A stretch of DNA of 64,000 bases from Bradyrhizobium sp. G127 (GCF_021502575.1 NZ_JAKFGN010000002.1:1426001-1490000), one strand, 5' to 3'; shown: positions 30,721-64,000, counted from the stretch's first letter. Translations and numbers: made by a program. Notes: generated by a model from the letters alone, not told the origin.

Positions 30721-30883
30721 CACGCTCGACGCAGAAAGCGATGCCTCGGTTCTACTCGTCAGTGGCAAACCCATTGAGGAGCCGGTTGTCATGCACGGCC
30801 CGTTCGTCATGAACACTGTCGGCGAAATCAAACAAGCCATGGTCGATTTTCAGAGCGGGAAGTTCGGACAGATTCCCGCCTGA
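30719..30883 (+). pseudogene. Remnant: C-terminus of a pirin-family protein
   Basis: The frame reads SDASVLLVSGKPIEEPVV, then HGPFVMNTVGEIKQAMVDF and SGKFGQIPA before a TGA. This is the conserved end of pirin-type cupins (GEPI-EPV-GPFVMNT-EI-QA). Only about 54 of some 230-300 residues remain. It is joined to the DUF2924 fragment upstream and is followed by an isochorismatase fragment, a common neighbour of pirin genes in rhizobia. Confidence 0.75.
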
Positions 30884-47035: not shown

Positions 47036-47241
47036 AACAGCACGCTAAGGACAATTTCCGCGCACAGTAGGGGGCGTGTTTCGGCATAACAATTACGCTT
47101 CGCCCCCGATTGTTACGCGGAGCGAACGGCTTCCTTGCAAGCAACCGATTAAATGTAAGGCTATTCAAGGTCTCGCTTGGGTGAATCCCACGGAGGCCGA
47201 TTGCCGAGACCATGAGTTCTGCGACTGGCTGTGGTGATGTA

Positions 47242-48777
47242 GCAGCAAAGCTAAAATGTCAGCACTGAGCAAAGTTCAAATGTCAGTTTCTGGTCCCGTT
47301 GGGGACTTTGGAGGCTGTCATTACGATGGGCATAGTGTTGATGAGCAAGCGCGAGCTGAACCGTCTTGATGTTCTGGCACGGCTGGATAGCGATAGACTG
47401 ACCGTGCTCGCTGCGGCTGGCTTGATGAACATTACGCCGCGGCAGACGTATCGGCTGTTGAGCAGATATCGCGAAGGCGGTGCTTCAGCGATCGCCAACC
47501 AGCGCCGTGGCCGCCCCTCGAACAACCGGTTGTCCGACGAGGTGCGGGATCACGCGATCGCTCTGGTCCGCCAATTCAACCACGACTTCGGACCGACATT
47601 GGCGGCCGAGAAGCTGGCGGAGCGTCATGATCTCAAGATCTCACGGGAGACGGTGCGCAACTGGATGCGGCGGGCCGGAATCTGGGTATCGCGGGCCGAG
47701 CGCAAGCGCATCCAGCAGCCTCGGTATCGCCGCGAGCATGTTGGCGAGTTGGTTCAGATCGACGGCTCCGAGCATCGCTGGCTTGAGGATCGCGGGGCTC
47801 CCTGTACGCTGCTGGTATTCGTCGATGATGCAACAAGCCGACTGATGGAGCTGCGTTTTGTCGCCTCGGAGAGCACATTTGCGTACTTCGCGGCGGTGAA
47901 GGCTTATCTCGGTCGCCACGGCAAGCCGGTTGCTTTCTACTCCGACAAGCATTCGATCTTCCGGGTGTCGAACGAGGACGCGGTTAGCGGCAATGGAATG
48001 GCTCAGTTCGGACAGGCCTTATCGGAGCTCAACATCGAGATTCTCTGCGCCAATACCAGCCAGGCAAAGGGCCGAGTCGAGCGCGCACATTCGACACTGC
48101 AGGATCGCCTGGTGAAGGAGTTGCGGCTCGCCGGCATCAGCACGTTAGACGAGGCTAATGCCTTCCTGCCCGGCTTTATCGCTCACTATAACGGCCGATT
48201 TGGTAAGCCGCCCGCCCGCGACAAGGATCTGCATCGCGTGATCGATCCCCGCCAAGATCTCGATCAGATTCTCTGTTGGCGGGAGTAGCGAACGGTCTCG
48301 CATCAGCTTGTCTTGAACTACAACCAGATGAAGCTAACGCTCAAGGCCGAGGGCCTGGCGACTCGTCTGCGCGGCAAGACGGTCGAGATCTACGACTATC
48401 CCGATGGGCGACTGGAGGTTCGCTGGAAAGGCAGATCGTTGCCTTACGTGGCCTTCGACAAGCTTCAGCGGGTCAGCCACGCCGCGATCGTGGAGAACAA
48501 GCGGCTTGGCGAGGTGTTGGCCTGGATCAAGGAACAGCAGGATAATCAGCCCTGGTACAGCCGCCTCCCTGAAGAGCCACGCCGCTCGGATCAGAAGGCT
48601 GGGTTTATGAAGGTTCGGGCCGAGCGGATCAAAGCCTCAAAATCAGTCTCGAAACCTTCCCGCAAACGGCGACGCCGCTCCGATATGATGGTCTGCGCGG
48701 CGCCGTCTTTCGTCCCCTGACCGGCTGCCTTGTGACATTTCTACTTTGCGCAGATCGTGACATCTCAACTCGGCTGC
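47242..48777 (+). mobile_element. ISNCY-type insertion sequence (about 1.54 kb)
   Basis: The transposase frame is flanked by imperfect inverted ends. The left end starts GCAGCAAAGCTAAAATGTCA and has a second AAATGTCA block 25 bases on. The right end, read inward on the other strand, starts GCAGCCGAGTTGAGATGTCA and likewise has a second AAATGTCA block. The ends carry two TGACATTT boxes each, probably transposase sites. No clear target duplication could be seen. Confidence 0.6.
47326..48720 (+). pseudogene. ISNCY-family transposase interrupted by an in-frame amber stop
   Basis: A helix-turn-helix N-terminus (MNITPRQTYRLLSRYREG) is followed by a DDE core: LVQIDGSEHRWLEDRG (first Asp), FYSDKHSIFR (second Asp) and QAKGRVERAHSTLQDRLV (Glu). 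TAG at 48286-48288 follows WRE. The same frame continues with RTVSHQLVLNYNQMKL and DYPDGRLEVRWKGRSL to 48720, which is the normal family C-terminus. A single nonsense change (for example GAG to TAG) therefore split the gene. The likely start is ATG 47326 (MGIVLMSKREL), as in homologues. Confidence 0.85.
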
Positions 48778-48865
48778 AACAGGCGCTCGCTCAGAATTGA
48801 AGGCAGCCAAAAGCACTTCGAATATCCTATACTTCGGCTGCATCGATCATTCGAAAGTATCCTCC

Positions 48866-49576
48866 ATGCCTCCAAAAGATCCGCTACGGATACCGACCAC
48901 CATCGCCGAGGCGATTCATACTGTCGAGAAAAAGCACGTTCTTTCACAGGGCGCAAACATCGTGATGCATGTTGGGCGGATGAATCTGAACGCGGGCAAG
49001 CATCTTCACCTCGTCGTGCTCGATTATAAGCCATCACCGTCCAACGAAAGCACTTTCATTCCCCTGCAATCAGGCAATACGTTTCGTGCGATTGAAGACT
49101 TAACCGGCCAGCGCCGCGAGTATCCTATTGAGCTATTAGACGGTGGTTGGGTGTCGCATGATGCGGTTGTCACGCTCCAAGATGGCACCACGTTACGCGC
49201 GGTGGAAGTCGTACGAGGTCGCCTTCCATATAAATTTACCCCAATGGATGAAAAAATCATCCATGCCGCCATTTCGGTCGCGAAGATTGAAAGCGCTGTC
49301 TATCGGTCTTTCCGTCAAGGATTACCTGAGGAAGATGCGAAGCGAAGAATGGTCGTGGGGGACGAGTTGATTGAGTTCGGTGAATTCATTGACGGCTTTA
49401 AATTCATCGACTTCAGTAAGTTGGCTCAGGTTGAAAAGCCGGTCCTCCTGCTCCTGAATATCAAAGGGAAATTTGAACAACTTTTTCCCTTAGAAAAATC
49501 TCCCTCCGAACAGAAAATTTCCAACACGCTAGCTTCGGTAGGCTTCTGGAAGCCAAAACGCAGACCAAAATCGTAA
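48866..49576 (+). CDS. Unrecognised protein downstream of the IS element
   Basis: A 236-aa protein (259 aa if the first ATG at 48797 is used). I recognise no family. It has a mixed alpha/beta pattern, with IVMHVGRMNLNAGKHLHLVV near the start, SHDAVVTLQDGTTLRAVEVV in the middle and LPEEDAKRRMVVGDELIEF followed by hydrophobic strand VLLLLNIKGKFEQLF. There is no signal peptide or membrane segment. It lies directly beyond the right end of the IS, and no clear ribosome-binding site precedes either ATG. The element may have separated it from its promoter or trimmed its N-terminus. The next gene encodes the methyltransferase. Confidence 0.5.
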   Translation: MPPKDPLRIPTTIAEAIHTVEKKHVLSQGANIVMHVGRMNLNAGKHLHLVVLDYKPSPSNESTFIPLQSGNTFRAIEDLTGQRREYPIELLDGGWVSHDAVVTLQDGTTLRAVEVVRGRLPYKFTPMDEKIIHAAISVAKIESAVYRSFRQGLPEEDAKRRMVVGDELIEFGEFIDGFKFIDFSKLAQVEKPVLLLLNIKGKFEQLFPLEKSPSEQKISNTLASVGFWKPKRRPKS

Positions 49577-49682
49577 ATTTACGGTCCCTTTTTTAGCCAC
49601 ATTTCCAGTTGGATCCGGGCTGGTGACGACGCCCCGGAGATGTGAATATTTATAGCTTCATTCAATTTGGGATGGAGCTCCG

Positions 49683-51011
49683 ATGCGAACGCCTACGGTT
49701 GAAACCGCATTACTCTCATCGCTTAGGCGAAGTACCCGCAATGCGCGTACCCACTCAAAAAAACAAATCTTACAGATCGCCGATAGTATTCGCACCTTCG
49801 GCTGGACCCAGCCCATATTGGCGGATGACAATGGGAATGTAATCGCCGGCCATGGACGAATGGCAGCCGCTTTGGAGCTCAAACTCAAAGCAGTCCCTGT
49901 CATCTATTGCACCGGGCTGACCGAATCCCAAAAGCGCGCCCTTGCGCTGGCAGATAACAAGATTGCCACTAACGCGGGATGGGATCGAACGCTATTGGCA
50001 ATCGAACTTGGCGAGCTTACTGCGCTGCTAACTGAACTCAATCTCGATCTTCACATTACGGGCTTCGAGCCTGCCGAAATCGACAGCTTATTAAGCGACC
50101 AAGTCGATTCCGAAATGGAGCCCGACGACATAATCCCCGCGATCGAGACTACGGCTGTCAGTCGCCCAGATGATATATGGACGCTCTCCAAACATCGGCT
50201 GTTGTGCGGAGATTCCAGAGAACCCGGCCATATCAAGAAGCTGATGGGCAACGCGCGCGCTGCGATGGTCTTCGCGGATCCGCCCTACAACGTTCGGGTT
50301 AGTTCGGTGCAGGGACGCGGAAAGATCAAGCACCGCGAGTTTGCCTCTGCTTCCGGCGAGATGTCGCACGCCCAATTCACCGAGTTCCTCACACAGTGGA
50401 TGCTTCTGGCCGCTCGGTATTCTGAAGATGGCGCAATTGTCTTCTGCTGCATGGATTGGCGACATCTTGCCGAATGCCTCGCTGCAGGAGAACAGGCGTT
50501 CACTGCGCTGAAGAACATCATCGCCTGGGTCAAGTCCAATGCCGGGCAAGGCAGCTTTTATCGGTCTCAACACGAGTTAATTCTTGTTTTCAAGAACGGG
50601 GACGCACCCCATCAAAACAACATTGAACTCGGCAAGTACGGTCGAGCTCGATCGAACGTTTGGCAGTACGCCGGCGTCAATTCATTCCGCAAAGACCGAC
50701 TTGCTGAATTGACCGTTCATCCAACCGTGAAGCCGGTCGCCTTGGTCGCCGACGCCATGCGTGACTGCTCGCGTCGTGGCGACATTGTGCTCGATCCGTT
50801 CATGGGATCTGGCACCACCATTTTGGCCGCGGAGAAAGTCGGTCGTCGCGCCTATGGGATCGAAATCGATCCTCTGTACGTCGATGTTGCCATCCGACGT
50901 TGGCAGGAATTCACCAAACGCGACGCGATTCTAGTGGCCACCGGCCACACCTTCGACGAGGTGGCCGCAGAGCGATCCACCTCCCCTGCTCTCAAACGCG
51001 TGAGTATCTGA
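49683..51011 (+). CDS. ParB-domain DNA adenine/cytosine-N4 methyltransferase
   Basis: A 442-aa fusion. Residues about 15-80 are a ParB/Sulfiredoxin-like domain (ADSIRTFGWTQPILADDNGN, VIAGHGRMAAALEL). Residues 160-410 are a beta-class amino-methyltransferase with motif IV DPPY at 199-202 ahead of motif I DPFMGSGTT at 371-379 and IEID at 393-396. It should methylate adenine N6 or cytosine N4 using SAM. The order IV before I is that of CcrM-like enzymes. No restriction enzyme gene is adjacent. It is the first of a triad with DUF5681 and terminase genes, a common set in prophage-like islands of this group. GGAG precedes ATG 49683. Confidence 0.9.
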   Translation: MRTPTVETALLSSLRRSTRNARTHSKKQILQIADSIRTFGWTQPILADDNGNVIAGHGRMAAALELKLKAVPVIYCTGLTESQKRALALADNKIATNAGWDRTLLAIELGELTALLTELNLDLHITGFEPAEIDSLLSDQVDSEMEPDDIIPAIETTAVSRPDDIWTLSKHRLLCGDSREPGHIKKLMGNARAAMVFADPPYNVRVSSVQGRGKIKHREFASASGEMSHAQFTEFLTQWMLLAARYSEDGAIVFCCMDWRHLAECLAAGEQAFTALKNIIAWVKSNAGQGSFYRSQHELILVFKNGDAPHQNNIELGKYGRARSNVWQYAGVNSFRKDRLAELTVHPTVKPVALVADAMRDCSRRGDIVLDPFMGSGTTILAAEKVGRRAYGIEIDPLYVDVAIRRWQEFTKRDAILVATGHTFDEVAAERSTSPALKRVSI

Positions 51012-51014
51012 CAA

Positions 51015-51449
51015 ATGGCATCGATTCCAAAAATTAAACGCGTCTTCCGAAAGCGGGTGCGGCTGGAGCCCAGCGACGATGATGTTGGCTATGGGAAGCC
51101 GCCTCGTTCCCGACAGTTCAAAGCCGGCCAAAGCGGCAATCCAAAAGGTCGCCCAAAGGGAACCAAGAGCGCCGCAGCTATCCTGCTCAAGATTCTCAAT
51201 CACAAGATCGAACTACGCCAGAACGGCAAGGTTCGAACGATCACTGTGCTTGAGGGAATTCTTCACAAGCTTGCAGAGGATTCCCTGCGGGGCAACACCA
51301 AGAGCGCCGCGTTCGTTCTTAATCAACTGGCCGCTATCGCACCCACGTCCGGCACCGAATCCGAAGTCAATCCCGATGATAGGGCTGTGCTGGACGCTTA
51401 CCTGCGCAACTTCCAATCCACACTCGGTGGAAAGGAGAAATTGCCGTGA
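51015..51449 (+). CDS. DUF5681-domain protein, terminase-small-subunit-like
   Basis: A 144-aa basic protein with the DUF5681 signature FKAGQSGNPKGRPKGTKSAA (about residues 35-54), followed by a helical region (ILLKILNHKIELRQNGK, LHKLAEDSLRGNTKSAAFVL). Genes of this type regularly sit directly before a terminase large-subunit gene, and the protein is thought to play the small-subunit (DNA recognition) role. Here the gene starts 3 bases after the methyltransferase stop and overlaps the terminase gene by 4 bases. Confidence 0.85.
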   Translation: MASIPKIKRVFRKRVRLEPSDDDVGYGKPPRSRQFKAGQSGNPKGRPKGTKSAAAILLKILNHKIELRQNGKVRTITVLEGILHKLAEDSLRGNTKSAAFVLNQLAAIAPTSGTESEVNPDDRAVLDAYLRNFQSTLGGKEKLP

Positions 51450-52840
51450 AGGACCAAGATCTGCTGTATTCCATCCTGCGCAACGATTTCGAGAGCTTCC
51501 TTCATCGCTGCTTTTTAATGCTCAATCCGGGTGCTGAGTACCTCCCGAATTGGCACATCAAAGCGATTGCGCACCAGCTCCAACGCATTCGCGATGGCAA
51601 GGTCAACCGTCTCATCCTCAACATGCCGCCGCGATATTTGAAGTCGCTGACGGTATCGGTGATACTGCCGGCCTTCTTGTTAGGTCATGATCCTCGAATG
51701 AAGATCTTTGGTGTAAGCTACAGCAATGACCTCTCGGCCAAACATGCGGCGGATTTTCGGGCAATCATTCAATCTGATTGGTATCGAAAAGCATTTCCGA
51801 GCATGCGCATTGCCCGAATCGCCGATTCCGACGTCTTTACCACCAGACGTGGCTTCCGCCGATCGACCTCCGTTTCGGCAACGCTCACTGGTCTCGGCGG
51901 CGACATGATTATTCTGGATGATCCCCAGAAGCCGGTGGATGCGCAATCCGACACCCTGCGGAATTCCCTGAATCAATGGTTCACAAACACACTCTTGTCT
52001 CGGCTCGATAACAAAGCGACAGGCGTGATCATTCTGGTCATGCAGCGGGTTCATCTTCACGACCTGACAGGCTTTCTGGTCGAAAACTCCGAAGACTGGA
52101 ACGTCTTGAGCCTGCCTGCCATCGCCGAGGTCGATGAGAAGGTCGAGATCGGTGAAGGGCAGTTCCACGCGCGCCGCGCTGGCCAACCTCTTCATCCCGC
52201 GTACGAGACTCTCGCAACGCTGGAAAAGCTTCGCACCGAAATGGGTTCGGGCATCTTCGGGGCCCAGTATCAGCAATCTCCCGTTCCAGACGGTGGAGGA
52301 ATGATCAAGCGTGATTGGCTGCGCTATTACGATCAATTGCCGGAACGCACCTACCGCACCAAAGTGATCCAAAGCTGGGACACGGCGGCAAAAGTTGGCA
52401 CCCAGAACGACTGGTCAGTCTGCACGACATGGTTGCTGGTGGATAAACACTTCTACCTGATGGACGTCACAAGGGGACGTTATGAATATCCCCAGCTACG
52501 CGCCACGGCGATCGCGCTCGCGCAACGATACGATCCGCTTAAAATACTGGTCGAGGACGCCTCGACTGGTATCGCTCTGGCTCAGGAACTTAAGCAAAGC
52601 GGTATCTACGCCGTCAAGCCCGTGCCCATCGAGCGTGATAAGCCGGGCCGCCTGTTCGTGCATCAAGCCAAGTTCGAGGCTGGTTTGGTGCTGTTTCCGA
52701 AGAAGGCACCTTTTTTAGCGCAGCTCGAAACCGAGCTTCTGGCTTTCCCGCAAGGCAAGCACGATGATCAGGTCGACAGTCTTAGCCAAGCGCTCTCCTA
52801 TAAGGGCGGCTACGATACAACCCTGTCGTGGGTCGGTTGA
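51446..52840 (+). CDS. Phage terminase large subunit-like ATPase/nuclease
   Basis: A 464-aa terminase. The N-terminal ATPase has a modified Walker A LNMPPRYLKSLTVSVILP (about residues 57-74) and Walker B DMIILDDPQKPVD (about 153). The RNase H-like nuclease domain shows IQSWDTAAKVG, ILVEDASTGIALAQEL and HDDQVDSLSQAL as likely metal-binding acids. It would package DNA in a phage. No portal, capsid or tail genes are found in the window, so this is a terminase outside an intact prophage. Length is near normal. Confidence 0.9.
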   Translation: MKDQDLLYSILRNDFESFLHRCFLMLNPGAEYLPNWHIKAIAHQLQRIRDGKVNRLILNMPPRYLKSLTVSVILPAFLLGHDPRMKIFGVSYSNDLSAKHAADFRAIIQSDWYRKAFPSMRIARIADSDVFTTRRGFRRSTSVSATLTGLGGDMIILDDPQKPVDAQSDTLRNSLNQWFTNTLLSRLDNKATGVIILVMQRVHLHDLTGFLVENSEDWNVLSLPAIAEVDEKVEIGEGQFHARRAGQPLHPAYETLATLEKLRTEMGSGIFGAQYQQSPVPDGGGMIKRDWLRYYDQLPERTYRTKVIQSWDTAAKVGTQNDWSVCTTWLLVDKHFYLMDVTRGRYEYPQLRATAIALAQRYDPLKILVEDASTGIALAQELKQSGIYAVKPVPIERDKPGRLFVHQAKFEAGLVLFPKKAPFLAQLETELLAFPQGKHDDQVDSLSQALSYKGGYDTTLSWVG

Positions 52841-52954
52841 AGCGCGATCAATTGGTAAGTAGCTGCGACGCAGCGCGGCCCGGGTGCGTTTGGGTCATCA
52901 CCGGTCACCAGAGCTTCTCTCCGCACCAAGGAAGTGACGCATCCTCGTAGTCAG

Positions 52955-53524
52955 TCAGAGCTTGCGGATGGATGAAAAGCGCATGGTGAACACCGGACTC
53001 TTCATCGATCCCGCCAAAGTTACGCTTTGCTCTCCGACGCAATCGAGGTTCGACGGAAAGAACCCACCAGAAAACCGCACGGTGTCACCTCTCCTCAATG
53101 CAGCCAGAGATTTGAAGAACTGGGTGTCGGGATCGATCAAGGTATTATCAGAATAGTCCGACAGGGCGTTATTCCAGGTCGAGACCTGCAAGCCTGGACT
53201 AAGTTCGAGCGTAATCACACCTTTACCATCGCCATTGGTGGAGAGATAGGCCACCTTTCCGATCCATCCTGAGGCGCTCTGACCTTGAAGGGCGCTACAG
53301 ATCGCCTCCTGTCGGGCATTGCGCATTCCTCCCGCAGCCAATTCATTAGGAGCCGAGTTAAATTTGGATCGCGCCTGCGTGATCGCCGCCATGAAGCGAG
53401 CCTGATCAGATGGAAGGGGGATGCTTGGGGCTGGCGGAGCCGCACTTCGACCGCCGCCGACCACGGCTCCGACGACGATAAATCCTAGCGCGCAGCCCAG
53501 GGCCGCCTTGATCGCAATATTCAT
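52955..53524 (-). CDS. Small membrane-anchored or exported protein of unknown function
   Basis: A 189-aa protein. ATG 53524 has GGGAG upstream and starts a hydrophobic segment (MNIAIKAALGCALGFIVVGA) that could be a signal anchor, then a Pro/Ala-rich linker. The folded part contains FNSAPNELAAGGMRNARQEA, WIGKVAYLSTNGDGKGVITL, and STWNNALSDYSDNTLIDP with RGDTVRFSGGFFPSNLDCV. The last segments suggest a small OB-like beta-barrel that occurs in several proteobacterial islands. It is divergent from the XRE regulator. Function unknown. Confidence 0.65.
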   Translation of the reverse strand: MNIAIKAALGCALGFIVVGAVVGGGRSAAPPAPSIPLPSDQARFMAAITQARSKFNSAPNELAAGGMRNARQEAICSALQGQSASGWIGKVAYLSTNGDGKGVITLELSPGLQVSTWNNALSDYSDNTLIDPDTQFFKSLAALRRGDTVRFSGGFFPSNLDCVGEQSVTLAGSMKSPVFTMRFSSIRKL

Positions 53525-53668
53525 GGACCACTCCCAGTTGCCTCGGTGTCCCCTTCCGCCGCATCTCAAAGGCTCGACGTGGGTCGACCAGCACATCGCT
53601 TCCTGTCGGGCTGAAGTCCACGCCACACTCGGCTGTCGGTAGCACTATCACCAACCTCGGTTAATATA

Positions 53669-53699
53669 ATCCTATTTTGGGATAATCCATTTTCAGGAT
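53669..53699. promoter_or_regulatory. Twin operators in the XRE divergent region
   Basis: Two tandem copies of ATCC-N7-GGAT: ATCCTATTTTGGGAT (53669-53683) and ATCCATTTTCAGGAT (53685-53699), 16 bases centre to centre. They lie 38-68 bases ahead of the XRE gene and 145 ahead of the divergent membrane-protein gene. They are the likely autoregulatory sites of the XRE protein. Confidence 0.6.
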
Positions 53700-53736
53700 C
53701 AGATTACTCGCCGCCGATTCACGGCCTTGGCGGCGC

Positions 53737-54012
53737 ATGCAAAAGACCCTCAAATCCGCGGATTATGCCCGGCTGATCGACCTGCTTGTCGCCGTGCGGA
53801 AATCAGCGGACGTTCGCCAGCAGGCTTTGGCCAAGAAACTCGGGCGACCTCAATCCTTTGTCGCGAAATATGAGAACGGCGAGCGCCGCCTCGATATCAT
53901 CGAGTTCACGGCCATCGCGCGCGCGCTTGGCGCCGATCCCGTCAAGCTGTTCAAGGACTACGTTGGCGGAAAAGGCGCGCCCAAGGCCGCCTTAAAGCGT
54001 CCGATCAAATAA
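53737..54012 (+). CDS. XRE-family helix-turn-helix regulator
   Basis: A 91-aa Cro/CI-type regulator. The helix-turn-helix is RQQALAKKLGRPQSFVAKYE (about residues 27-46), followed by NGERRLDIIEFTAIARALGA, a pattern common in small XRE proteins of mobile islands. It probably binds the twin ATCC-N7-GGAT sites upstream. No toxin-type partner is adjacent; the next gene on the same strand is a 74-aa helical protein gene 134 bases away. The ribosome-binding site is weak. Confidence 0.88.
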   Translation: MQKTLKSADYARLIDLLVAVRKSADVRQQALAKKLGRPQSFVAKYENGERRLDIIEFTAIARALGADPVKLFKDYVGGKGAPKAALKRPIK

Positions 54013-54037
54013 GTCGTGCGGCTTTGGGCTTCTTTTT

Positions 54038-54054
54038 GGATCATTTTGTGATCC
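54038..54054. other. Perfect hairpin/palindrome after the XRE gene
   Basis: GGATCA-TTTTG-TGATCC. It shares the ATC-ATTTT-GAT look of the twin operators upstream of the XRE gene, so it may be a third site ahead of the downstream cassette. The T-run lies on the wrong side for a terminator of the XRE gene. Confidence 0.35.
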
Positions 54055-54146
54055 GGACCGGCTGATAAGAGCCACTAGATTGCTGCGTTTCTGCTCGACT
54101 TCCCCAACACGTGGAGCGTCACTGTCGTCGTAAAACCGGAGGCAAG

Positions 54147-54371
54147 ATGATGGATCGCAAAATTACTGAACAGGCAATTGGCCTGATCCTCACCGAGATC
54201 GGTATTCGCCTTGGCGAGGCCGCCCGGATCGCCAAGGCCGCTGAGGCCTGCGCGCTGGCCGGCAGCGTCAGTGAAGGCGTCAGAGTCTCGATGGATCTCG
54301 AACAGATTTTCTATGAGACCGGTCGTCTGCAGGATGCGGCTTCGCTACTGAACCGGTTGTCGAGCGACTAA
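54147..54371 (+). CDS. Small helical protein of unknown function
   Basis: A 74-aa protein (MMDRKITEQ...). The ATG at 54147 has GGAGG six bases upstream. It appears all-helical: EQAIGLILTEIGIRLGEAA, then SVSEGVRVSMDLEQIFYETG and DAASLLNRLSS. I recognise no family, but similar small genes occur beside DUF3489/DUF2924 recombinase cassettes. It is 99 bases before the DUF3489 gene. Confidence 0.6.
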   Translation: MMDRKITEQAIGLILTEIGIRLGEAARIAKAAEACALAGSVSEGVRVSMDLEQIFYETGRLQDAASLLNRLSSD

Positions 54372-54470
54372 GAATCTCTCTCCTACCCAAAGGTTCTCCG
54401 CCTGTCGGCAACCGACGGGCTTGCGGCAGTGGCAGCACAGGATGCTGTCGTTCATGCAAGGAGAACCGGA

Positions 54471-54824
54471 ATGGCCACCAACAATCGAAAACCTTCGCGC
54501 AAGACCGGGCGTAAATCCACACCGGCACCAAAGCGATCGACGAAACCGGCCTCCAAGGCTCTGCCGCCCGTCGCACCGAAGAAGCCGGTCACGCCGAAGA
54601 CGCCGAACGTGGCCATGTCCAAGCAGGACAAGGTCCTCGATATGCTGCGCGCGCCCTCCGGCACCACCATCGCCGCCATTATGAAGGCGACCGAGTGGCA
54701 GCAACATTCGGTGCGCGGCTTCTTTGCAGGCACGGTGCGCAAAAAGCTCAAGCTGAACCTAACTTCGGTCAAAACCGATGACCAACGCGTCTACCGGATC
54801 GCAAAGCCGGGCATCGGGAAATGA
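54471..54824 (+). CDS. DUF3489-domain protein
   Basis: A 117-aa protein with a basic, Pro/Lys-rich N-terminal half (about residues 1-48) and a DUF3489 winged-helix-like C-terminus: KQDKVLDMLRAPSGTTIAAI, then TEWQQHSVRGFFAGTVRKKL. DUF3489 genes travel with DUF2924 and large serine recombinases in alphaproteobacteria, so it may be a DNA-binding accessory. AAGGAG precedes the ATG at 54471. The end overlaps the DUF2924 gene by 4 bases. Confidence 0.85.
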   Translation: MATNNRKPSRKTGRKSTPAPKRSTKPASKALPPVAPKKPVTPKTPNVAMSKQDKVLDMLRAPSGTTIAAIMKATEWQQHSVRGFFAGTVRKKLKLNLTSVKTDDQRVYRIAKPGIGK

Positions 54825-55309
54825 GCCAGCTTCCCTCCTCCATGAAACCAGCCGATCCAGCCGTGGAAGCGGAGCTCGATCGGCTGGCGACAGCTCCCAT
54901 CGTCGAATTGCGCAAACGATATCGAGAGGTGCTTCGAACGGATCCGCCGAAAGCTTTCGGCCCGGACCTGCTGCGCCGGAGCATCGCTCACCGGATTCAA
55001 GAAAAGGCCTATGGCAGATTATACGGCCCGACCAAGCGCCTGCTCGACCAGCTTGTGAAAGCCATGACCGCCAAGCCCAATGGAAAGCTTGATTTGCCGC
55101 GCCGGATCAAGCCCGGCTCAGAGCTGGTCCGGACATGGAAGGGAAAAACCTACCGGGTCGTGGTCCGGCCGGACGGGTTTGCCTATGACGGCAAGACCTA
55201 TGAAGGTCTCTCCGAGATCGCGTCCTTAATTGCCGGTACCAACTGGAATGGACCGCGCTTCTTCGGGCTGCGGTCGAAGACAGAAAAGGCCACGTCGGAT
55301 GGCAAGTAG
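54821..55309 (+). CDS. DUF2924-domain protein
   Basis: A 162-aa protein of the DUF2924 family: ELDRLATAPIVELRKRYREV, DLLRRSIAHRIQEKAYG, RRIKPGSELVRTWKGKTYRV and DGFAYDGKTYEGLSEIASLI. It is encoded between DUF3489 and recombinase genes, overlapping both (4 and 11 bases). DUF2924 is assumed to assist the recombinase. A truncated copy about 80% alike in the shared part lies at 30430-30720, showing that cassettes of this type have inserted more than once. Confidence 0.88.
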   Translation: MSQLPSSMKPADPAVEAELDRLATAPIVELRKRYREVLRTDPPKAFGPDLLRRSIAHRIQEKAYGRLYGPTKRLLDQLVKAMTAKPNGKLDLPRRIKPGSELVRTWKGKTYRVVVRPDGFAYDGKTYEGLSEIASLIAGTNWNGPRFFGLRSKTEKATSDGK

Positions 55310-56834
55310 CGCTCCCAAACCCCTGCGTTGCGCCATCTACACCCGCAAATCGACCGAACATGGCCTCGAGCTGGAATTCAACTCGCTCGATGCGCAGCGA
55401 GAGGCTTGCGAGGCGTATATCAAGAGCCAGGCGTCACTCGGCTGGAAGGTCATCAGCCAGCCCTATGACGATCCGGCTTTCTCCGGCGGCAACCTTGAGC
55501 GCCCTGCCCTCAAGCAACTGCTCAAAGATATTGAAGCAGGTAAGGTCGACGTCGTCGTGGTCTACAAGATCGACCGCCTCACCCGCTCGCTGGCTGACTT
55601 TGCCAAACTGGTCGAGGCATTCGACGCCAGATCGATTTCATTCGTCGCCGTCACCCAGCAGTTCAATACGACGACCTCGATGGGACGACTGACGCTCAAC
55701 ATCCTTCTCTCCTTCGCTCAGTTCGAGCGGGAGCTGTCCTCCGAGCGCGTCCGGGATAAGGTTGCCGCCTCTCGGCGCAAAGGAAAGTGGACCGGCGGCA
55801 CGGTGCCGCTCGGCTACGAGGCTCGGGACAAGAAGCTCGTCATCAATGCCACCGAAGCAGAGTCCGTCCGTATAATTTTCCGACGCTATGTCGAACTGCA
55901 ATCTTTTGGCCGCCTCGTGACCGATCTCGACAAGCGCGGCATCGTCACCAAACGGCGGAATACCAAGGTCAAGAAGTTCAACGGTGGCATTCCGTTCACC
56001 TATGGCCCACTCGCTCATTTCCTCAAAAACCGGATTTACATTGGCGAAACTGGTCACAGCGGTAAATGGTATCCCGGCGAGCACAAGGCCATTGTTGACC
56101 GCAAAATCTTCGACAAAGTTCAAGAACTCCTAGCGGCCAGTACCAACAAAAGGAAAATCAAACGATCGGAAAGCGGCGCGCTTCTGATGGGAAAGCTGTT
56201 CGACGATCGGGGCAATGCCATGAGCCCGAGCTTTTCGTCAAAGAACGGCGCCCGCTATCGCTTCTATGTCAGCTCCGCAATCCTACGTGGCCGCAAACTG
56301 GAAGCCGGATCGGTAGCGCGCGTCTCCGCAACCGACATCGAACGGACGCTGATCAATGCTTTGCGCCAACGGCTAAAGATTGATCAGGCTGTGCTGGATG
56401 CAGATGTTATCGGCACTTACGTCGCACGTGCAGACCTGAGCAGCCGCGTCGTCAAAATCACCACCACACCTGCGGCGAAAATTCGATCGAACAAATTCTC
56501 GATCGCTTGGTGGATGCGCCAGCCGGGCTCGGCAACTATCATTCAATCGAACAGCGCAAACCAACTTGACCCAAAGCTGGTGCAGGCCATTGTTCGAGCC
56601 CATGCATGGCTGCATGATCTGAAGAACGGCAAATTTGACACCGTCGAGACGCTGGCTGCCTCGGTCAAGCTGCATCCGAAGTTGGTGCGACAGGAACTGC
56701 GATATGCGTTCCTCATGCCGCCCATTACTGCAGCCATTCTTAACGGCGACCAACCAGCGACATTGACCTTAGCTCAGATTCCTAAAACACTGCCCCTTAC
56801 ATGGCGCGAGCAATGCAAGGTGCTCAGCTTCTGA
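55299..56834 (+). CDS. Large serine recombinase
   Basis: A 511-aa site-specific recombinase. The resolvase domain has the catalytic Ser at about residue 18 in YTRKSTEHGLELEFNSLDAQ, then DVVVVYKIDRLTRSLADFAK and NILLSFAQFERELSSERVRD. The recombinase domain follows (IPFTYGPLAHFLKNRIYIGE, about 230) with a zinc-ribbon-like region and a C-terminal DNA-binding part. The ATG at 55299 overlaps the DUF2924 stop, giving translational coupling. It likely moved this island; attachment sites were not identified. Confidence 0.92.
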   Translation: MASSAPKPLRCAIYTRKSTEHGLELEFNSLDAQREACEAYIKSQASLGWKVISQPYDDPAFSGGNLERPALKQLLKDIEAGKVDVVVVYKIDRLTRSLADFAKLVEAFDARSISFVAVTQQFNTTTSMGRLTLNILLSFAQFERELSSERVRDKVAASRRKGKWTGGTVPLGYEARDKKLVINATEAESVRIIFRRYVELQSFGRLVTDLDKRGIVTKRRNTKVKKFNGGIPFTYGPLAHFLKNRIYIGETGHSGKWYPGEHKAIVDRKIFDKVQELLAASTNKRKIKRSESGALLMGKLFDDRGNAMSPSFSSKNGARYRFYVSSAILRGRKLEAGSVARVSATDIERTLINALRQRLKIDQAVLDADVIGTYVARADLSSRVVKITTTPAAKIRSNKFSIAWWMRQPGSATIIQSNSANQLDPKLVQAIVRAHAWLHDLKNGKFDTVETLAASVKLHPKLVRQELRYAFLMPPITAAILNGDQPATLTLAQIPKTLPLTWREQCKVLSF

Positions 56835-57217
56835 ACCAAGACTTCAGAAACGCACATCCGATGTTATGGAATGTGAAGGTCCGCATTGAGTCGACCACAA
56901 AGTAGGCCAACTATAGACCTTCAGTGGATAGGTGAACTCAGCGATGAGACGGCTCCGGCGAGCTATACAATAAGAGGCCGTGCAGAGGCTAAGCAGTTTG
57001 GCCAATTTCCTCAGGTTCTGTACTGCAGCAGCGAGCAAACTGGTCGCACCCCACATGGTACCGAGCCTAAGGGTTGGCAGTGGGCGTACCCCCCCCTCAA
57101 TGGATATAATCGGCGTTCATACACCAAAGATAGGAAAAATCCTCTTTTCAAGGCCGAGTTCCCCGAACAAGCTTATATTGGTGCTTTCGGATTCGAATCA
57201 TTAGCGTTGCCGCTGAA
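56835..57217. other. Intergenic stretch between recombinase and helicase genes
   Basis: No known gene is seen. A 177-aa plus-strand frame (56886-57419) crosses it and runs into the helicase gene in another frame; its sequence resembles no family and is probably spurious. The promoter of the helicase-nuclease pair should be here. A homopolymer CCCCCCC at about 57090-57096 stands out. Confidence 0.45.
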
Positions 57218-60200
57218 ATGGATTACGGCTCTATGGCGCGGGTTCCCACGCATGGCAAGTCGACACTCGATGCACGGTTCAGCTTTGCCGATAGCGGGTT
57301 TGTCGGTGGGAGCGAGGGCTGGCATTCACAACTTCGCTTTGCCACGGGTATTGCGGATGGCGAGCACTATCTTCTGCGCCTCTTCAAGAAGACCGGAACG
57401 GCGCTCGACGAAGATCTGAAGCGGCTCATCACGCACGGGCTCAGGCGGGTGCGCCGCGTTCTCTCATCGCGGCGTGCACGCCAGCTCCTGGTCGAGATCA
57501 TTGAAATCGTCGAGGACCAAGATGAGATCGGTATCCTGATGGTCGATCCCGGCAGTCCCATTTGTGGGTCATCGCATAGGGTCCGCGCTCGGGAAAGCCG
57601 CCTGCTTACGCCGACCGGCCGCAAGGCGTTTTGGCGCAATATCGTGCGCGTCGCCGAAGGACTCGCACTTTGTCATGATGCGGGCATCGTGCATGGCGCC
57701 GTCAGCGAACACGCAATCTTCTCGCATAATGATGAAAAGGAAGATTTCCGTCTCGGCGGTTACGAAGCGTGCGTGCACCTCGCCGATGGCGATATGATGG
57801 GCGGTGCCGGACATCTTGTACGGCCGTCCGGCACCGTTTCGTTCCGGCGGGACTGGAGCGATCTTGGCCAGGCTGCATCGCGTATCCTTGGCGTTACCGA
57901 GGATGGTGGCGGCCCCTCTCTACTGTCGATCGAACGGCGCATGCTCAATCGCCTAGCCAATCCGCCGCACTACCAGCTTTTCGACGGCAACATTGTCCTG
58001 AGCGAGCTGGCCGAGGTCGTGGCTGATCTTGACCGGTCAGGGTCAAGCGCCGAAGGCGAGCTCGTTCTCTATCCTTCGGCTCAAGTTATTCAAAGCGATC
58101 TTCCCGCACTCACGTCCGGCACCGTCCGGGCAGATGACCGGGACGCAGTTCTTCGGTTTGTCGACGAAGATCTGAGCGGACCTTCGGTACGGACCGTTGT
58201 TGTAGATCAGGCCTATGTACGTGTCGTCACCGATCTTGCCGCCTATGGGGTGAAAGTCGTCGATGATTGTGTCGGCATGATTCAAAATGCTAACAAAAGG
58301 CGGCCTGACGACTATATTTACGATGCCACCGAGGTTTCTCACAGGCTCCATCTGGCGCGAACCCGAAAAGGCGCTGAAGAACGGGTGCGCAAGCTCGGAC
58401 CGGGTGCCAAGCCGTGGATCGACACCAGCGGCGATAGTCGCGCGGCACAACGAGCCGACGATGTTCCAACCTGGTACGCCCTGATTCTCCTCGAAGCGTT
58501 TACCTGGCTACGTGAACAGTTTCGGATCTATCCCGTCGAGGTGCTTCACCCGCCGTCGGACGGAGACACCGATTTGGCCTGGATCGCATCCCGTGAGGAT
58601 GACGCTCGAGATATCCGGCGCAAAATGATGGGACTGCGTCCAGCGTACGACGCGTTAGGCCGCGAACTGAAGTACGACGACGGCAAGCCGAATTGGACCC
58701 TTTCGCGCCTTGATGCGCTCGCCGGCGATCGCGAACGGCTCCCCGAGCTCAGTTATGAGGGAACGGGCGGCATTGTCGATGGCCGCCTGGCTTTCACATT
58801 CGCGACCAGCGAAGCCGTGGTGCCGGGACAGACCCTGTATCTTCGCCCTCGTCGCGATAGCGGATTCGAACGCGCTATTCGCCGTCGCCTTCAGAATATC
58901 GTGGCGGCCCGGACCAATATTGAACTCTTGAGAGCAATCGACGATCCGGCACAGGTCGCGTTGGACGATGTGCTGCGCGATATTGCAGCTCCGGGCAAAA
59001 CGCCGCCCCAGGATATGGATGCGTCGAAAAAGACAGCATGGGACGCCATTCTGGCCGGCAAGTCGATTAACGTCGTTGTCGGCCCTCCCGGCGTCGGCAA
59101 GACCTTCCTGATCTCGCATCTCGTCAGGGGTATTCTGGAAAAAACACCGGATGCCCGCCTGCTGGTCTCGGCGCAAAACCACGAGACCTTGATTCAGATG
59201 GAGGACGAACTCAAAAAGACGCTTGCGGGTGGCACGACGATCGTCGTTCGTGTCGAGCGCACGCGATTGACCGATGAAGTGAGTCCGCTGCGCGCGAGCT
59301 CGATTGGCCTGCTCCAGTCGGTTTCGGCCGCGGGCCATGCCGCTGAGGGCGCGATGGTCAATCAACGCTACCAAATCAAGCAGTCGCTGCAACCCGATGT
59401 GTCGGAAGCGGCCATCGCGGAAAGGGTGTTTCGCGATACCGATAATCTGTTGCTGCGTTCATCTGATGTCACGCTTGCGACGACGTCGTCGCACATCATC
59501 GAAGAAATGATTGCGGACGGCGATCAATTCGACTGGGTCATCGTCGAGGAAGCCGCTCGCGCCAATGGCGCGGAACTGATCGGCGCGTTGCTGCTGGGCA
59601 ACAGGCGAATCATGGTTGGAGATCACAATCAGCTTTCTCCTTTCGACGCAGCCCAACGGCAGAAGTTCTATGATGCCGAACGCGCGGAAGAGCTGCTGCG
59701 AGGCGCGAAACAGCAGCTTGAAACCATCCCCGATCTTCCGTCGGAAATCTACGAAGCCCTTGATACCATCAAGTCGAATGCGCTTTTGCAGAAGGAAGTG
59801 CTCGCGACGGCAGCTCGGCTTGAAGAGCCATTCCGATCGATCGCGGAGCGCGAAGAACAACGAGAGAAGGATACAGGGCGATCGAGCACGATTGTCAACA
59901 CCCTCCTCGAACAGAGCCGCATGCACCCCGCTATCGGCGATCTCGTTTCAAACACGTTCTACAAGAAGAACCTCGTTCCCTCCGATCGCGTCAAGCATCG
60001 CGCGCTGACCGTTACGTCGGCTGCTCCACACCTCGCTGCGCCGATCGTTCTTCTCGATTTTCCGCCACTCAGCTTGACCAAAAAGCGGAATTTCGAAGTG
60101 AAGGTGGAACGCTCATATCGCAACGAACTCGAGGCGCACGCTTTGATCGCGGCTTTGAAAGGCTTGCGACCGGTTGTCGGCAAGGATGGCAGCCGACCAA

Positions 60201-60691
60201 CGCTGGTGATCCTTTCGCCTTATGCAGCACAGGTCAAATGGCTCAAGCGTTTGCTTCATCAACAGGTCAGGAAAGACAAGACCTTGTTCGGCTTCGCCAG
60301 TCCGCGCAGCAACGGAGAGTTTATCTTTACGAGCGACAGCTTCCAGGGCGGCGAGGCCGACGTCGTCATCGCCAGTCTCACGCGTAACAATGTCATGGTG
60401 GGATCGCGTGCGTTGGGATTCGTCAAGAGTTCACAACGCATGAATGTGCTGCTCAGCCGCGCCAGGCAAAAGCTAGTTCTTGCCACCAGCCAACACTTCA
60501 TTCGCGACGTGGTCGAGGGAATAGATCCCGACGGCAACAAAGATGAGCTCGAGTTCCTTCGCAGGATGCTGAAGGAGCTCGCGACGCTCGCGAAAACTGA
60601 ATACGATCTGGTCAGGAAAGACGCGCCCGTCGTCAAGGTCAAGGGAGCTTCCATCATCACGGTCGATGAGAATGGGAGATTCCCCGCGTGA
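57218..60691 (+). CDS. Pseudokinase-SF1 helicase fusion, MkoA-like (Mokosh type I)
   Basis: A 1157-aa two-part protein. Residues about 30-260 resemble a protein kinase: a lysine segment YLLRLFKK (51-58), DAGIVHGAVSEHAIF (154-168) in the place of the HRD loop, and FRLGGYE (177-183) in place of DFG. The catalytic Asp residues are absent, so it should be a pseudokinase. Residues about 600-1100 are a Upf1/COG1112-type SF1 helicase: Walker A GPPGVGKT (622-629), motif II VIVEEAA (774-780), GDHNQLSPF (801-809), QSRMHP (899-904), DSFQGGEADVVI (1040-1051), MNVLLSRAR (1075-1083). A middle region (270-590) is unassigned. GTGA overlap couples it to the PLD gene. Start ATG 57218 or 57233; neither has a strong ribosome-binding site. 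Confidence 0.85.
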   Translation: MDYGSMARVPTHGKSTLDARFSFADSGFVGGSEGWHSQLRFATGIADGEHYLLRLFKKTGTALDEDLKRLITHGLRRVRRVLSSRRARQLLVEIIEIVEDQDEIGILMVDPGSPICGSSHRVRARESRLLTPTGRKAFWRNIVRVAEGLALCHDAGIVHGAVSEHAIFSHNDEKEDFRLGGYEACVHLADGDMMGGAGHLVRPSGTVSFRRDWSDLGQAASRILGVTEDGGGPSLLSIERRMLNRLANPPHYQLFDGNIVLSELAEVVADLDRSGSSAEGELVLYPSAQVIQSDLPALTSGTVRADDRDAVLRFVDEDLSGPSVRTVVVDQAYVRVVTDLAAYGVKVVDDCVGMIQNANKRRPDDYIYDATEVSHRLHLARTRKGAEERVRKLGPGAKPWIDTSGDSRAAQRADDVPTWYALILLEAFTWLREQFRIYPVEVLHPPSDGDTDLAWIASREDDARDIRRKMMGLRPAYDALGRELKYDDGKPNWTLSRLDALAGDRERLPELSYEGTGGIVDGRLAFTFATSEAVVPGQTLYLRPRRDSGFERAIRRRLQNIVAARTNIELLRAIDDPAQVALDDVLRDIAAPGKTPPQDMDASKKTAWDAILAGKSINVVVGPPGVGKTFLISHLVRGILEKTPDARLLVSAQNHETLIQMEDELKKTLAGGTTIVVRVERTRLTDEVSPLRASSIGLLQSVSAAGHAAEGAMVNQRYQIKQSLQPDVSEAAIAERVFRDTDNLLLRSSDVTLATTSSHIIEEMIADGDQFDWVIVEEAARANGAELIGALLLGNRRIMVGDHNQLSPFDAAQRQKFYDAERAEELLRGAKQQLETIPDLPSEIYEALDTIKSNALLQKEVLATAARLEEPFRSIAEREEQREKDTGRSSTIVNTLLEQSRMHPAIGDLVSNTFYKKNLVPSDRVKHRALTVTSAAPHLAAPIVLLDFPPLSLTKKRNFEVKVERSYRNELEAHALIAALKGLRPVVGKDGSRPTLVILSPYAAQVKWLKRLLHQQVRKDKTLFGFASPRSNGEFIFTSDSFQGGEADVVIASLTRNNVMVGSRALGFVKSSQRMNVLLSRARQKLVLATSQHFIRDVVEGIDPDGNKDELEFLRRMLKELATLAKTEYDLVRKDAPVVKVKGASIITVDENGRFPA

Positions 60692-62427
60692 AAATCTACC
60701 TTCCGGCCTGGCACTATCGTGCGCGCGCCATCGTCCAGCGCACTTGGGGATGGAGCCCGATCGAGGAAATGATCTTGCTGGCGCTCGATCGCGCGCCGGA
60801 TACGATTGAGGGTGTTGCCAAGTCGCTCAGAATTCCTGTCCAAGTCGCTGGCTCGACCATCGCGCGGTTGATGCAATTTGGCCTGGTCGAGCTTCGCCTG
60901 TCACCCGTTCCCCAGCTGGCAACAAGCAGTGTCGGTCGCGACTTCATCCGGCTCGGAGGCGCTTTGCCAGAGCGAACCGAAGATCGCGAGATTCACATCA
61001 GTCTCGTGCTGGAGAAAGTCGGACACTCCGTCTTTCGCAACCGCGACGTCGAAACCGCCCCACTCAATCGATTTGTCCACACGGATCACAAGGTCAACTT
61101 CCCACCGGGACCTGATGAGACCGATGACACAATGGCCGCGCGGGTCACCCAGTTCGTGGCCGGCATGCTGCGCCCCGGCGAATGGCTGCGCGGTGTGCAG
61201 ACGATCAATTCGGTCCTCGAAAGAAAATACCTTGCCATCGATCTCAACGACGTCAAGAACGGTTTGCTCCCCGAGGGAGCCAGTCAGGACTTGATCGGAG
61301 CCCTTCAGGCAACGATCAAGACCGGCGTTCTTCCCGAGGCCAGCGATCCTCAGCAAAGCCGGTCACCGACCATCGATACCATGATGTCGGACGACCAATT
61401 GATTGTTGGCGGCGACCAACACCTGGAACGCTTCGAACACATCGTCGATCAGGCCGAAGAAGATGTCTTTGTACTGTCGACCTTTATCACGCCGCACGAC
61501 GGCAAGTACACGGATCGCCACGAACGTGTCCGCGCGGCGCTCGAGCGGGCATGCCTGCGTGGCGTGCGCTGCCACCTGTTCTATGGCACGGCGCTGGACG
61601 CCGAGAGAAGAAATGCCATTGCGATGCAGGAGCTCAATGTCCGGCTCTCCTCGGTACGGCGCGCGCGTGGCCTCGTGCTTGCGCAGCGAGACTCGGTTCG
61701 AAGTCATGTGAAATGTCTTGCCGCAGATGATGGCCGAGGAGGTGCTGTGGTCGTGCTCGGCTCCTCCAACTGGCTGTCGTCCCCTTTTTCAGCCGTTGAG
61801 CTGTCTGCCGAACTCACCGAAAATCACGCGGCTGCGGCCGGCTTGGACCTTCTGCGTTCGATTATCTCGCCTCTTTCCAGCGCCAGTCGTTCGGTTGAAA
61901 CGCTTCAGTTCATGGCGTCGGACTTGAGGCGCACCCGAAGCTCCTTGTCACTCAGGACCGAGACCGGCCAGAGTATCCCGATACGGATGACGATCCTTCA
62001 AGCCGACGACCATGAGCGAGTGCTCCGATGGGTCGCGCACGAGGCCGATGAACGGTTCGTCTGCTGCAGCAATAAGGTTGGAGCCACCATGGTACCCGGG
62101 CTGTTCAACCCGGCCGAAATCGCGGGCCGCCGCCTCGGCGACGTCCGTGTTTATTATTCGCGTTCGTCGGGACCCATTAAGCGGCGGCACGTCAAAGCCC
62201 ATCGCGACCGACTAAATGGGGTCGTTGATCTGATTGCCGTGGAGGATCCGCAAGTTCACGCGAAATTCCTCTTGTGGGGCAACGATCATGCCGTGGTGAG
62301 TACGATGAATTGGGGCTCTCAATCGGGTTCGCCCGATAATCCCCTCGACGAGATTGGGCTGCATCTGGAGGGATCGGGGCTGGCTACGTCGCTCTTGGCC
62401 AAGTTCGAAAAACAGCTCGAGGATTGA
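60688..62427 (+). CDS. PLD-superfamily nuclease, MkoB-like (Mokosh type I)
   Basis: A 579-aa protein beginning with GTG overlapping the helicase stop. Residues about 24-75 form a winged helix (PDTIEGVAKSLRIP, then VAGSTIARLMQFGLVELR). The C-terminal half holds two PLD (HxK) motifs: SHVKCLAADD (about 339-348) with GSSN at 358-361, and QVHAKFLLWGNDH (522-534) with STMNWGS at 538-544, which together should make one nuclease active site. No signal peptide is seen, so this is a cytoplasmic nuclease and not a secreted phospholipase. It is translationally linked to the helicase gene. Confidence 0.87.
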   Translation: MKIYLPAWHYRARAIVQRTWGWSPIEEMILLALDRAPDTIEGVAKSLRIPVQVAGSTIARLMQFGLVELRLSPVPQLATSSVGRDFIRLGGALPERTEDREIHISLVLEKVGHSVFRNRDVETAPLNRFVHTDHKVNFPPGPDETDDTMAARVTQFVAGMLRPGEWLRGVQTINSVLERKYLAIDLNDVKNGLLPEGASQDLIGALQATIKTGVLPEASDPQQSRSPTIDTMMSDDQLIVGGDQHLERFEHIVDQAEEDVFVLSTFITPHDGKYTDRHERVRAALERACLRGVRCHLFYGTALDAERRNAIAMQELNVRLSSVRRARGLVLAQRDSVRSHVKCLAADDGRGGAVVVLGSSNWLSSPFSAVELSAELTENHAAAAGLDLLRSIISPLSSASRSVETLQFMASDLRRTRSSLSLRTETGQSIPIRMTILQADDHERVLRWVAHEADERFVCCSNKVGATMVPGLFNPAEIAGRRLGDVRVYYSRSSGPIKRRHVKAHRDRLNGVVDLIAVEDPQVHAKFLLWGNDHAVVSTMNWGSQSGSPDNPLDEIGLHLEGSGLATSLLAKFEKQLED

Positions 62428-62590: not shown

Positions 62591-63490
62591 TTAAGCGGCA
62601 GACCGATTGGAATCAGAGATTTTCTGAAACTCTGCGAGCAGCTCCGGAAAGCTCTGGGCGAGGTATCGCACCACACGGGCGTTTTCGATTAATCTATTCA
62701 AATAGCCGGTTGCTACCACCAAATCGAGGTGGTCAGTTCCGTATGACTGCTCCACGAGCCGAAATTCGCGGTCAAGATTTGCGGACTCCTGCTCCATCAG
62801 CGCCACCTGATCGTCGGTTAATCCTTCAATGTGTTTGGGCTTAGCTGCATCGACCAGCAAAGCCTGCGGCGTGGCTCCTAACAATGACTTCGCGTACGTG
62901 ATCGAATACTTGTTCATTGCCACCATCAATTGCGCCGCTTCGATTTGGCGCATCGGCAACATCTTTTTGAGTTCGGCGAATGTCGAGATAGGGACATGCT
63001 TATCCTTGAGCATCTCTACCGTCTCGGCACATATTCCTTCCAGGAGACGCTTCTTTAGACGGACATGAGCAACATTCACGTTTAGAACCTTAGCAATCCG
63101 TTCTTCCGGCACCCCGCGCTTGATCGCCGCGAGTATCATGTTGCGTTCTTGAATGATCGCAATTCGGCTTACCCTTTTATTGTAGGTAAAAGCCTCGTCA
63201 TCTGTCGCAATGATGCACGTAACTTCCGTCCATCCTTGCTCCTGGAGAACCGACAATCTTAGGTGCCCATCAAGCAGCAGATATTTGCCCTTCTCACTCC
63301 TATCGCGCGCTACAACAGGAGGCTCAACGATTCCGATCTCGCGGATGGATGACTGAATCTGCGAATACTTTGGAGTTTTCTTGACCGCTCCACTAACCAG
63401 ACGAAGCGGTTGAATCGCGCTAATCTCGATAACAACGCTCTCTCGCTCGAACGCCATTGCTACCGGTCGTTTTTCAAGCTTTCTGGACAT
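62591..63490 (-). CDS. ParB/RepB-like partition-type DNA-binding protein
   Basis: A 299-aa protein. The N-terminal ParB/Srx nuclease-like domain has SIREIGIVEPPVVARDRSEK then YLLLDGHLRLSVLQEQGW (about residues 48-85). A helix-turn-helix follows (GVPEERIAKVLNVNVAHVRL, about 125-144), then a RepB-like C-terminal region. ATG 63490 overlaps the stop of the upstream ParB-like gene by one base. Such pairs occur in integrative elements. No ParA gene is visible in the window. It is convergent with the helicase-nuclease pair. Confidence 0.85.
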   Translation of the reverse strand: MSRKLEKRPVAMAFERESVVIEISAIQPLRLVSGAVKKTPKYSQIQSSIREIGIVEPPVVARDRSEKGKYLLLDGHLRLSVLQEQGWTEVTCIIATDDEAFTYNKRVSRIAIIQERNMILAAIKRGVPEERIAKVLNVNVAHVRLKKRLLEGICAETVEMLKDKHVPISTFAELKKMLPMRQIEAAQLMVAMNKYSITYAKSLLGATPQALLVDAAKPKHIEGLTDDQVALMEQESANLDREFRLVEQSYGTDHLDLVVATGYLNRLIENARVVRYLAQSFPELLAEFQKISDSNRSAA

Positions 63491-64000
63491 CAAGCCACAT
63501 CTCCTCGTTCCATGCGACTCATGAGTTTCTTTGGCATCGAATCTAGTTTTTCGGCCTTCAGAAGCGATATGAATTTTTCGTCGCCAAATAACTCACGCAT
63601 TGCATGTGCAATGAAAATCAGGCGATTGCGCGTAGCGTCCGCCTTACGGATAAGAAGCCGCTTTCGATCAGTATCTTCGCGATAGACCCTGACGAGCGAA
63701 CGGGTTGAAAGCTTTTGCCCGCCCTTTTTGGGCTCGGCGTCAAATCTGCGACCCCGGCGACGCCTGTTTTCAACAAGCCGTTTGACAATCATAAGCTTTC
63801 GACCGCGAAGAAGGTTCTTTTCATAAGCCTGCTGAAGAGCTTCCTGCACGCCGACGTCATCTGCTTCAGCTATCTCAACAGCAACGCTTACAGGGATATG
63901 TCCAGATTCCACGGCGCGCAAAAGACGTTGCTCACCTTGAGCAAGAAGCCGACCAACACCGCGAACGTATTCGAATGACAGGCCGGTTTTCTTGGCAATC
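63490..64000 (-). CDS. ParB/RepB-like protein, partial (runs off the right window edge)
   Basis: The open frame extends without a stop to position 64000, so the gene's 5' part lies outside the window. The visible 169 residues include IAKKTGLSFEYVRGVGRLLA, the end of a ParB helix-turn-helix, then ESGHIPVSVAVEIAEADD and a basic C-terminal stretch RRRRGRRF. The internal TTG at 63921 is not needed as a start. It is the upstream partner of the ParB-like gene at 62591-63490 and a likely paralogue with a different C-terminus. Confidence 0.85.
   Translation of the reverse strand, partial: IAKKTGLSFEYVRGVGRLLAQGEQRLLRAVESGHIPVSVAVEIAEADDVGVQEALQQAYEKNLLRGRKLMIVKRLVENRRRRGRRFDAEPKKGGQKLSTRSLVRVYREDTDRKRLLIRKADATRNRLIFIAHAMRELFGDEKFISLLKAEKLDSMPKKLMSRMERGDVA

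Follow-up and report, generated by a model that had tools for sequence, protein, structure and literature searches.

Type I Mokosh systems are defined by a helicase and a PLD nuclease encoded by separate genes, together with an STK domain (PMC11672841). Type II is a single fused gene without a kinase domain (PMC11672841). A NERD domain has also been listed for type I (PMC10952713), and the mechanism of Mokosh is still listed as unknown in a 2026 review (PMC12926258).

The locus described here lies in a 64,000-nucleotide stretch of Bradyrhizobium sp. G127 (NZ_JAKFGN010000002.1:1426001-1490000), which is called the window below. The genome around the operon is 4.76 Mb in size and Afipia-like, and among named relatives that have the operon, Afipia sp. 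OHSU_II-C1 is the nearest (98% protein identity). Two ORFs on the plus strand, encoding proteins of 1157 and 579 aa, overlap by the four nucleotides GTGA (Table 1), exactly where a first-pass annotation of the sequence had placed them and at the lengths it gave. The 4-nt overlap is also seen in distant relatives. Since several MkoA relatives begin with MAR, five residues downstream of the annotated ATG, the true start of MkoA may be residue 6 (position 57233). Plasmid pSR5 of Aminobacter has a third ORF, encoding a hypothetical protein, that shares 4 nt with the mkoB end (L084:15156-16301) and is possibly an accessory gene.

The first-pass annotation had assigned the pair to Mokosh type I, and the PADLOC profiles bear this out from end to end. 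MkoA matches PDLC03920 with E 1.4e-212 (residues 17-1127), and MkoB matches PDLC03922 with E 6.4e-85 (residues 2-575). Because both proteins match over their full length, a chance match is excluded. The two profiles outscore every housekeeping and every other defence family in PADLOC, Pfam, and NCBIfam; a better match to a housekeeping or DNA-repair family, the outcome that the annotation had set against Mokosh, is absent. The locus has a COG1112/Upf1-type helicase, a PLD nuclease in a separate gene, and a kinase fold on the helicase. If a catalytically competent STK is part of the definition, this locus departs from it, as the HRD Asp, the Asn, and the DFG Asp are lost. The PADLOC MkoA seed family does not demand a competent STK, and dead-kinase members score full-length on it. 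NERD has no Pfam match in MkoA; as it is found only in a long subtype described below, it is not general to type I. On sequence evidence, the operon is a Mokosh type I system of the PLD subtype (PDLC03920/PDLC03922), with which it shares gene order, the 4-nt overlap, domain order, and the full-length match. A pseudokinase, motif II EEA, and the PLD HxK motifs are common to all relatives of this subtype that were read. The window copy shows no difference in kind from them; its own traits are a beta-3 Lys to Arg change, shared with its subclade, and a Gly in place of Asp in the second HxKx4D of MkoB.

Other described systems are less similar. Mokosh type II (MkoC) shares the helicase and PLD domains, but the MkoC matches are weak (43 and 25 bits), and the window has two separate genes and a kinase-like domain instead of one fused protein. 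DISARM DrmC has the PLD domain in common (23.9 bits against a curated cutoff of 133) and the PLuB helicase has the helicase core in common (PLuB_AAA, 107 bits against a cutoff of 999), but the partner genes of both systems are absent. The NCBIfam models for IGHMBP2, RecD, PLuB, and DrmC all score far under their cutoffs.

Table 1. Features of the mkoA-mkoB operon and of the adjoining element (positions in the window)
Feature	Position	Strand	Evidence
mkoA: pseudokinase and SF1 Upf1-like helicase, 1157 aa, ATG start	57218..60691	+	PADLOC PDLC03920, 707 bits, profile 7-1103/1112
mkoB: winged helix and tandem PLD nuclease, 579 aa, GTG start	60688..62427	+	PADLOC PDLC03922, 285 bits, profile 7-601/610
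MkoA kinase-like domain, predicted catalytically dead, residues 17-265	57266..58012	+	profile search against PDB kinases, alignment, dN/dS 0.07-0.08
MkoA HGA in place of HRD	57692-57700	+	alignment
MkoA GGY in place of DFG	57755-57763	+	alignment
MkoA middle region, residues 270-590, unassigned	58025..58987	+	coverage 93-100% in relatives
MkoA SF1 helicase core, residues 600-1095	59015..60502	+	AAA_11/AAA_12, motifs in alignment
MkoA Walker A GPPGVGKT	59081-59104	+	alignment
MkoA motif II EEAA	59546-59557	+	alignment
MkoB winged helix, residues 22-70	60751..60897	+	PF12802 20.2 bits, sub-cutoff; hhalign E 1e-4 to long-form MkoB
MkoB first PLD half-site, H340-V-K342-x4-D347 ... S359-x-N361	61705..61770	+	invariant in 15 relatives
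MkoB second PLD half-site, H524-A-K526 ... N541	62257..62310	+	H, K, N invariant in 15 relatives
Phage-like element: ParB-type methyltransferase, DUF5681, terminase large subunit, DUF2924, large serine recombinase; not part of Mokosh	48784..56834	+	Pfam
20-mer directly after recombinase stop, candidate end/attachment sequence	56853..56872	+	two genomic occurrences only

A kinase-like N-terminus had been proposed for MkoA, and a profile of 16 MkoA N-termini, searched against PDB, does find protein kinases: GCN2 (E 2e-9), MNK, the pseudokinase CASK (1e-7), and PKR. One of the MkoA relatives has a canonical kinase domain, and the N-terminus can be aligned with it too (hhalign E 1e-6, probability 91). 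Calling it a pseudokinase is justified as well. In the alignment, HRD is changed to HGA, the catalytic Asn to Ala, and DFG to GGY, in addition to the beta-3 change, and both catalytic Asp residues (HRD and DFG) are absent in all 30 sampled MkoA of the PLD-subtype lineage. Judged from the alignment, the domain looks catalytically dead.

Pairwise dN/dS, calculated against relatives at dS of ~0.5-1.1, is as low in this domain (Table 1) as in the middle region (0.07-0.09), the helicase (0.10-0.12), and MkoB (0.09-0.11), or lower. Constraint on the kinase-like domain thus equals or exceeds that on the helicase, and this speaks for a non-catalytic role and against decay. The same strong constraint would suit an unusual enzyme that signals in defence, either one that needs no Mg, as in CASK, or a nucleotidyl or phosphoryl transferase of another kind, and CASK, itself atypical in lacking the DFG Asp, is the best PDB match of the single sequence. 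Such an enzyme is improbable, however, since CASK keeps HRD in the alignment while MkoA has lost both the Asp of HRD and the catalytic Asn, and the window's subclade lacks the beta-3 Lys as well. Within what a pairwise dN/dS test can show, it is hardly credible that the operon is a decaying, non-functional copy. Although the kinase residues are gone and one PLD Asp is Gly in the window copy, both ORFs are intact, pairwise dN/dS is ~0.1 across all domains and both genes and lowest in the kinase-like domain, and the kinase losses are common to the whole clade.

The remainder of MkoA carries the SF1 Upf1-like helicase expected from the annotation (AAA_12 117 bits and AAA_11 71 bits in Pfam; UPF1, NAM7, and IGHMBP2 matches in PDB). 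Its core retains Walker A, motif III, motif V, and motif VI in the alignment. Motif II is EEAA, and EEA instead of DEA is found in all MkoA of the window's lineage (30/30). The middle region diverges faster, and every PLD-subtype member has it. By this coverage it is a part of the family and not a distinguishing one; the suggestion that the middle region and the winged helix of the nuclease set this locus apart does not hold, both being family features. An AF2 model of MkoA built with nine relatives (mean pLDDT 35, pTM 0.24) was left unused.

MkoB has the winged helix and the two HxK PLD motifs that were read from the sequence at first. The winged helix is MarR-like, with a PF12802 (MarR_2) score below the cutoff of 27 bits, and PLDc_2 scores above its cutoff (34 bits). 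PLD enzymes cut without metal via a phospho-histidine. The PLD His, Lys, and Asn are invariant among 15 diverse relatives, and all 22 MkoB partners read from the pseudokinase lineage retain both HxK motifs. A fold search with a weak AF2 model of MkoB (pLDDT 49) gave two-site PLDs, including the nucleases PLD3 and PLD4. Because motif II of the helicase is EEA and the second HxKx4D of this MkoB has Gly for Asp, full catalytic competence of the pair is only assumed.

Type I itself falls into two subtypes. In a comparison of 37 distinct MkoA, taken from records of genomes and plasmids, long forms (~1400-1650 aa, PDLC03921) have a NERD domain, a first kinase-like domain without DFG, and a second one in which HGD, Asn, and Asp are intact. 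A helicase-core tree (42 rows, IQ-TREE, with midpoint rooting that gives no direction) places two groups apart with 100/100 support, and kinase state changes on it once. Branches are long in the lineage without the window, and the inner order there is uncertain. Motif II in that other lineage is DEA or DES. It includes one genome (G074) whose MkoA lacks NERD and carries only one kinase domain, of canonical type (Pkinase 104 bits). The MkoB partners split in the same way as MkoA. Seven long-form partners were read, and two HxK motifs occur in none of them, although three carry one stray HxK near the C-terminus; the five of these seven that were scanned, and the G074 partner, have no match to a PLD family even at E = 1. 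In profile comparisons the only part common to long-form and window MkoB is the N-terminal winged-helix region (E 1e-4 and 8e-4); no C-terminal homology was found between them, including between the long-form C-terminal half and the second PLD half. A long-form MkoB profile has no match in PDB. Judged from these profiles, long-form MkoB could hide a degenerate PLD fold, which is neither shown nor excluded. Long forms are the type found in E. coli, where 312 of 5426 complete genomes match the long-form helicase DNA. Two E. coli loci were read whole (L168/L169). Their MkoA has 1650 or 1652 aa, and their MkoB, annotated as hypothetical protein, has 478 aa without any HxK.

The NERD subtype (PDLC03921/PDLC03923; E. 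coli) shares with the window the helicase core, kinase-like domain(s), a winged-helix MkoB, and overlapping genes. It differs by the extra NERD nuclease domain, a second kinase-like domain with catalytic residues, motif II DEA, and MkoB without detectable PLD. Tentatively, and at somewhat less than even odds, type I seems to unite two catalytic designs on a shared core of helicase and winged helix. One would combine a dead kinase with a PLD effector in MkoB, as here. The second design, that of E. coli, would have an MkoB with no working PLD and would leave catalysis to MkoA, with its NERD nuclease and live kinase. In that case the winged-helix MkoB would serve as an adaptor able to gain a nuclease, and E. 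coli-type MkoB would be wrongly called a PLD nuclease. This two-design division of type I may be new. Note that the co-occurrence of PLD, dead kinase, and EEA was rejected as proof of functional coupling, since it amounts to a single change on the tree. With only one split, the subtype pattern defines lineages and does not link the presence of PLD functionally to the loss of the kinase.

At the thresholds used, MkoA matches are sporadic: 19/300 genomes of the family, 10/398 of the order, 3/385 in a class sample, and 14/399 in a phylum sample. Relatives exist on rhizobial and agrobacterial plasmids, most of which are conjugative, and an Aminobacter relative in a defence-island setting adjoins Hachiman, AbiE, and Lit genes. 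The similarity of the helicase core to Upf1 and IGHMBP2 would allow for a housekeeping helicase/nuclease pair of RNA decay or DNA repair. This is very improbable, however, given such a sporadic occurrence, the mobile settings of the relatives, and the low scores of the housekeeping models. An MkoA with 84% identity lies inside a 21.5-kb region that Afipia- and Bradyrhizobium-named records share at 100% identity and a Sphingorhabdus bin at 99.9%, the identity extending over >55 kb among three genomes (21471 bases in each of L030, L032, L034, L035, and L039; flanks L118-L121 and L134-L135). These identical 21-kb loci across genera may reflect the transfer of a large element in the very recent past, or else contamination, which is possible because some of the records are metagenome bins.

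An 8-kb phage-like element ends just upstream of mkoA. The first-pass annotation had placed the operon on a recombinase-bearing island, and an element with a recombinase does adjoin mkoA. Mokosh as the cargo of this element finds no support: the 20-mer that follows the recombinase, a candidate end of the element, sits between the element and mkoA, without a second copy past Mokosh. In the genome the 20-mer is found at two places only, each after a copy of the recombinase of the element. The second copy of the element (74% identity) is on the same contig, ~33 kb further on and beyond the window (window-relative 81590-89722). Beyond its recombinase end there is a complete Wadjet type I (JetABCD) with an LmuB-like gene (window-relative 90767-99972; L004:10767-19972). 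In six other genomes, 5 of 11 recombinase-end flanks have a defence system (Lamassu twice, CBASS, Wadjet, and Mza), compared to 0/11 on the other side and 0/9 in arbitrary regions; a few single-gene matches occur in these controls. Fisher p is 0.035 for the comparison with the other side and 0.003 for that with all controls. The counts take in clear multi-gene matches only and come from a small, post hoc sample. A literature search for DUF2924 with a recombinase returned only Wolbachia papers.

Several other features of the surroundings were recorded. A partial third copy of the DUF2924 gene (30444-30725, 81% identity over residues 49-142) is perhaps a remnant of the phage-like element. A transposase-like ORF (HTH_32, rve_3) is present at 47238-48781, and this segment is found inverted beside mkoA in Afipia OHSU_II-C1 (L026:7078-8623, 87% identity). 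Convergent to mkoB (62591-64000 and L003:3490-5933), there are two tandem RepB/ParB-like genes (PF07506), which overlap by 4 nt, and then another large serine recombinase.

Wadjet is an anti-plasmid system, and here it lies ~30 kb downstream of Mokosh. Together with the many relatives on conjugative plasmids, where excluding competitors would pay, and with phage records, in which no relative of MkoA or MkoB was found, this proximity would fit an operon that mainly blocks plasmids or conjugative elements and not phages. Such a role is unlikely, as plasmid carriage is common among all defence systems and Mokosh has been reported as an anti-phage system (PMC11672841).

The main reading, to which we give a probability of roughly 0.7, is that the window holds a complete PLD-subtype operon of Mokosh type I, maintained by selection, which acts through an MkoA-MkoB complex. 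The Upf1-like helicase of MkoA would sense or load on foreign nucleic acid, presumably RNA as assumed from the helicase family, and move along it. Docking of the nuclease, either to MkoA or to the substrate, would be the task of the MkoB winged helix, in both subtypes alike, and the strand would then be cut by the tandem PLD site. The kinase-like domain, without phosphorylation, would serve as a folded scaffold or as an allosteric switch that couples the state of the helicase to the nuclease. Complex formation, the substrate, this order of events, and an anti-phage effect are what we infer from the domains.

With a dead but constrained kinase joined to a Upf1-like helicase, MkoA offers a clear case for testing whether a pseudokinase can act as a switch in bacterial immunity. 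The two-design reading of type I is also testable by point mutation, as the mutations expected to abolish defence differ between the two subtypes. Since the catalytic sites apparently reside in different proteins in each subtype, findings on one should not be extended to the other.
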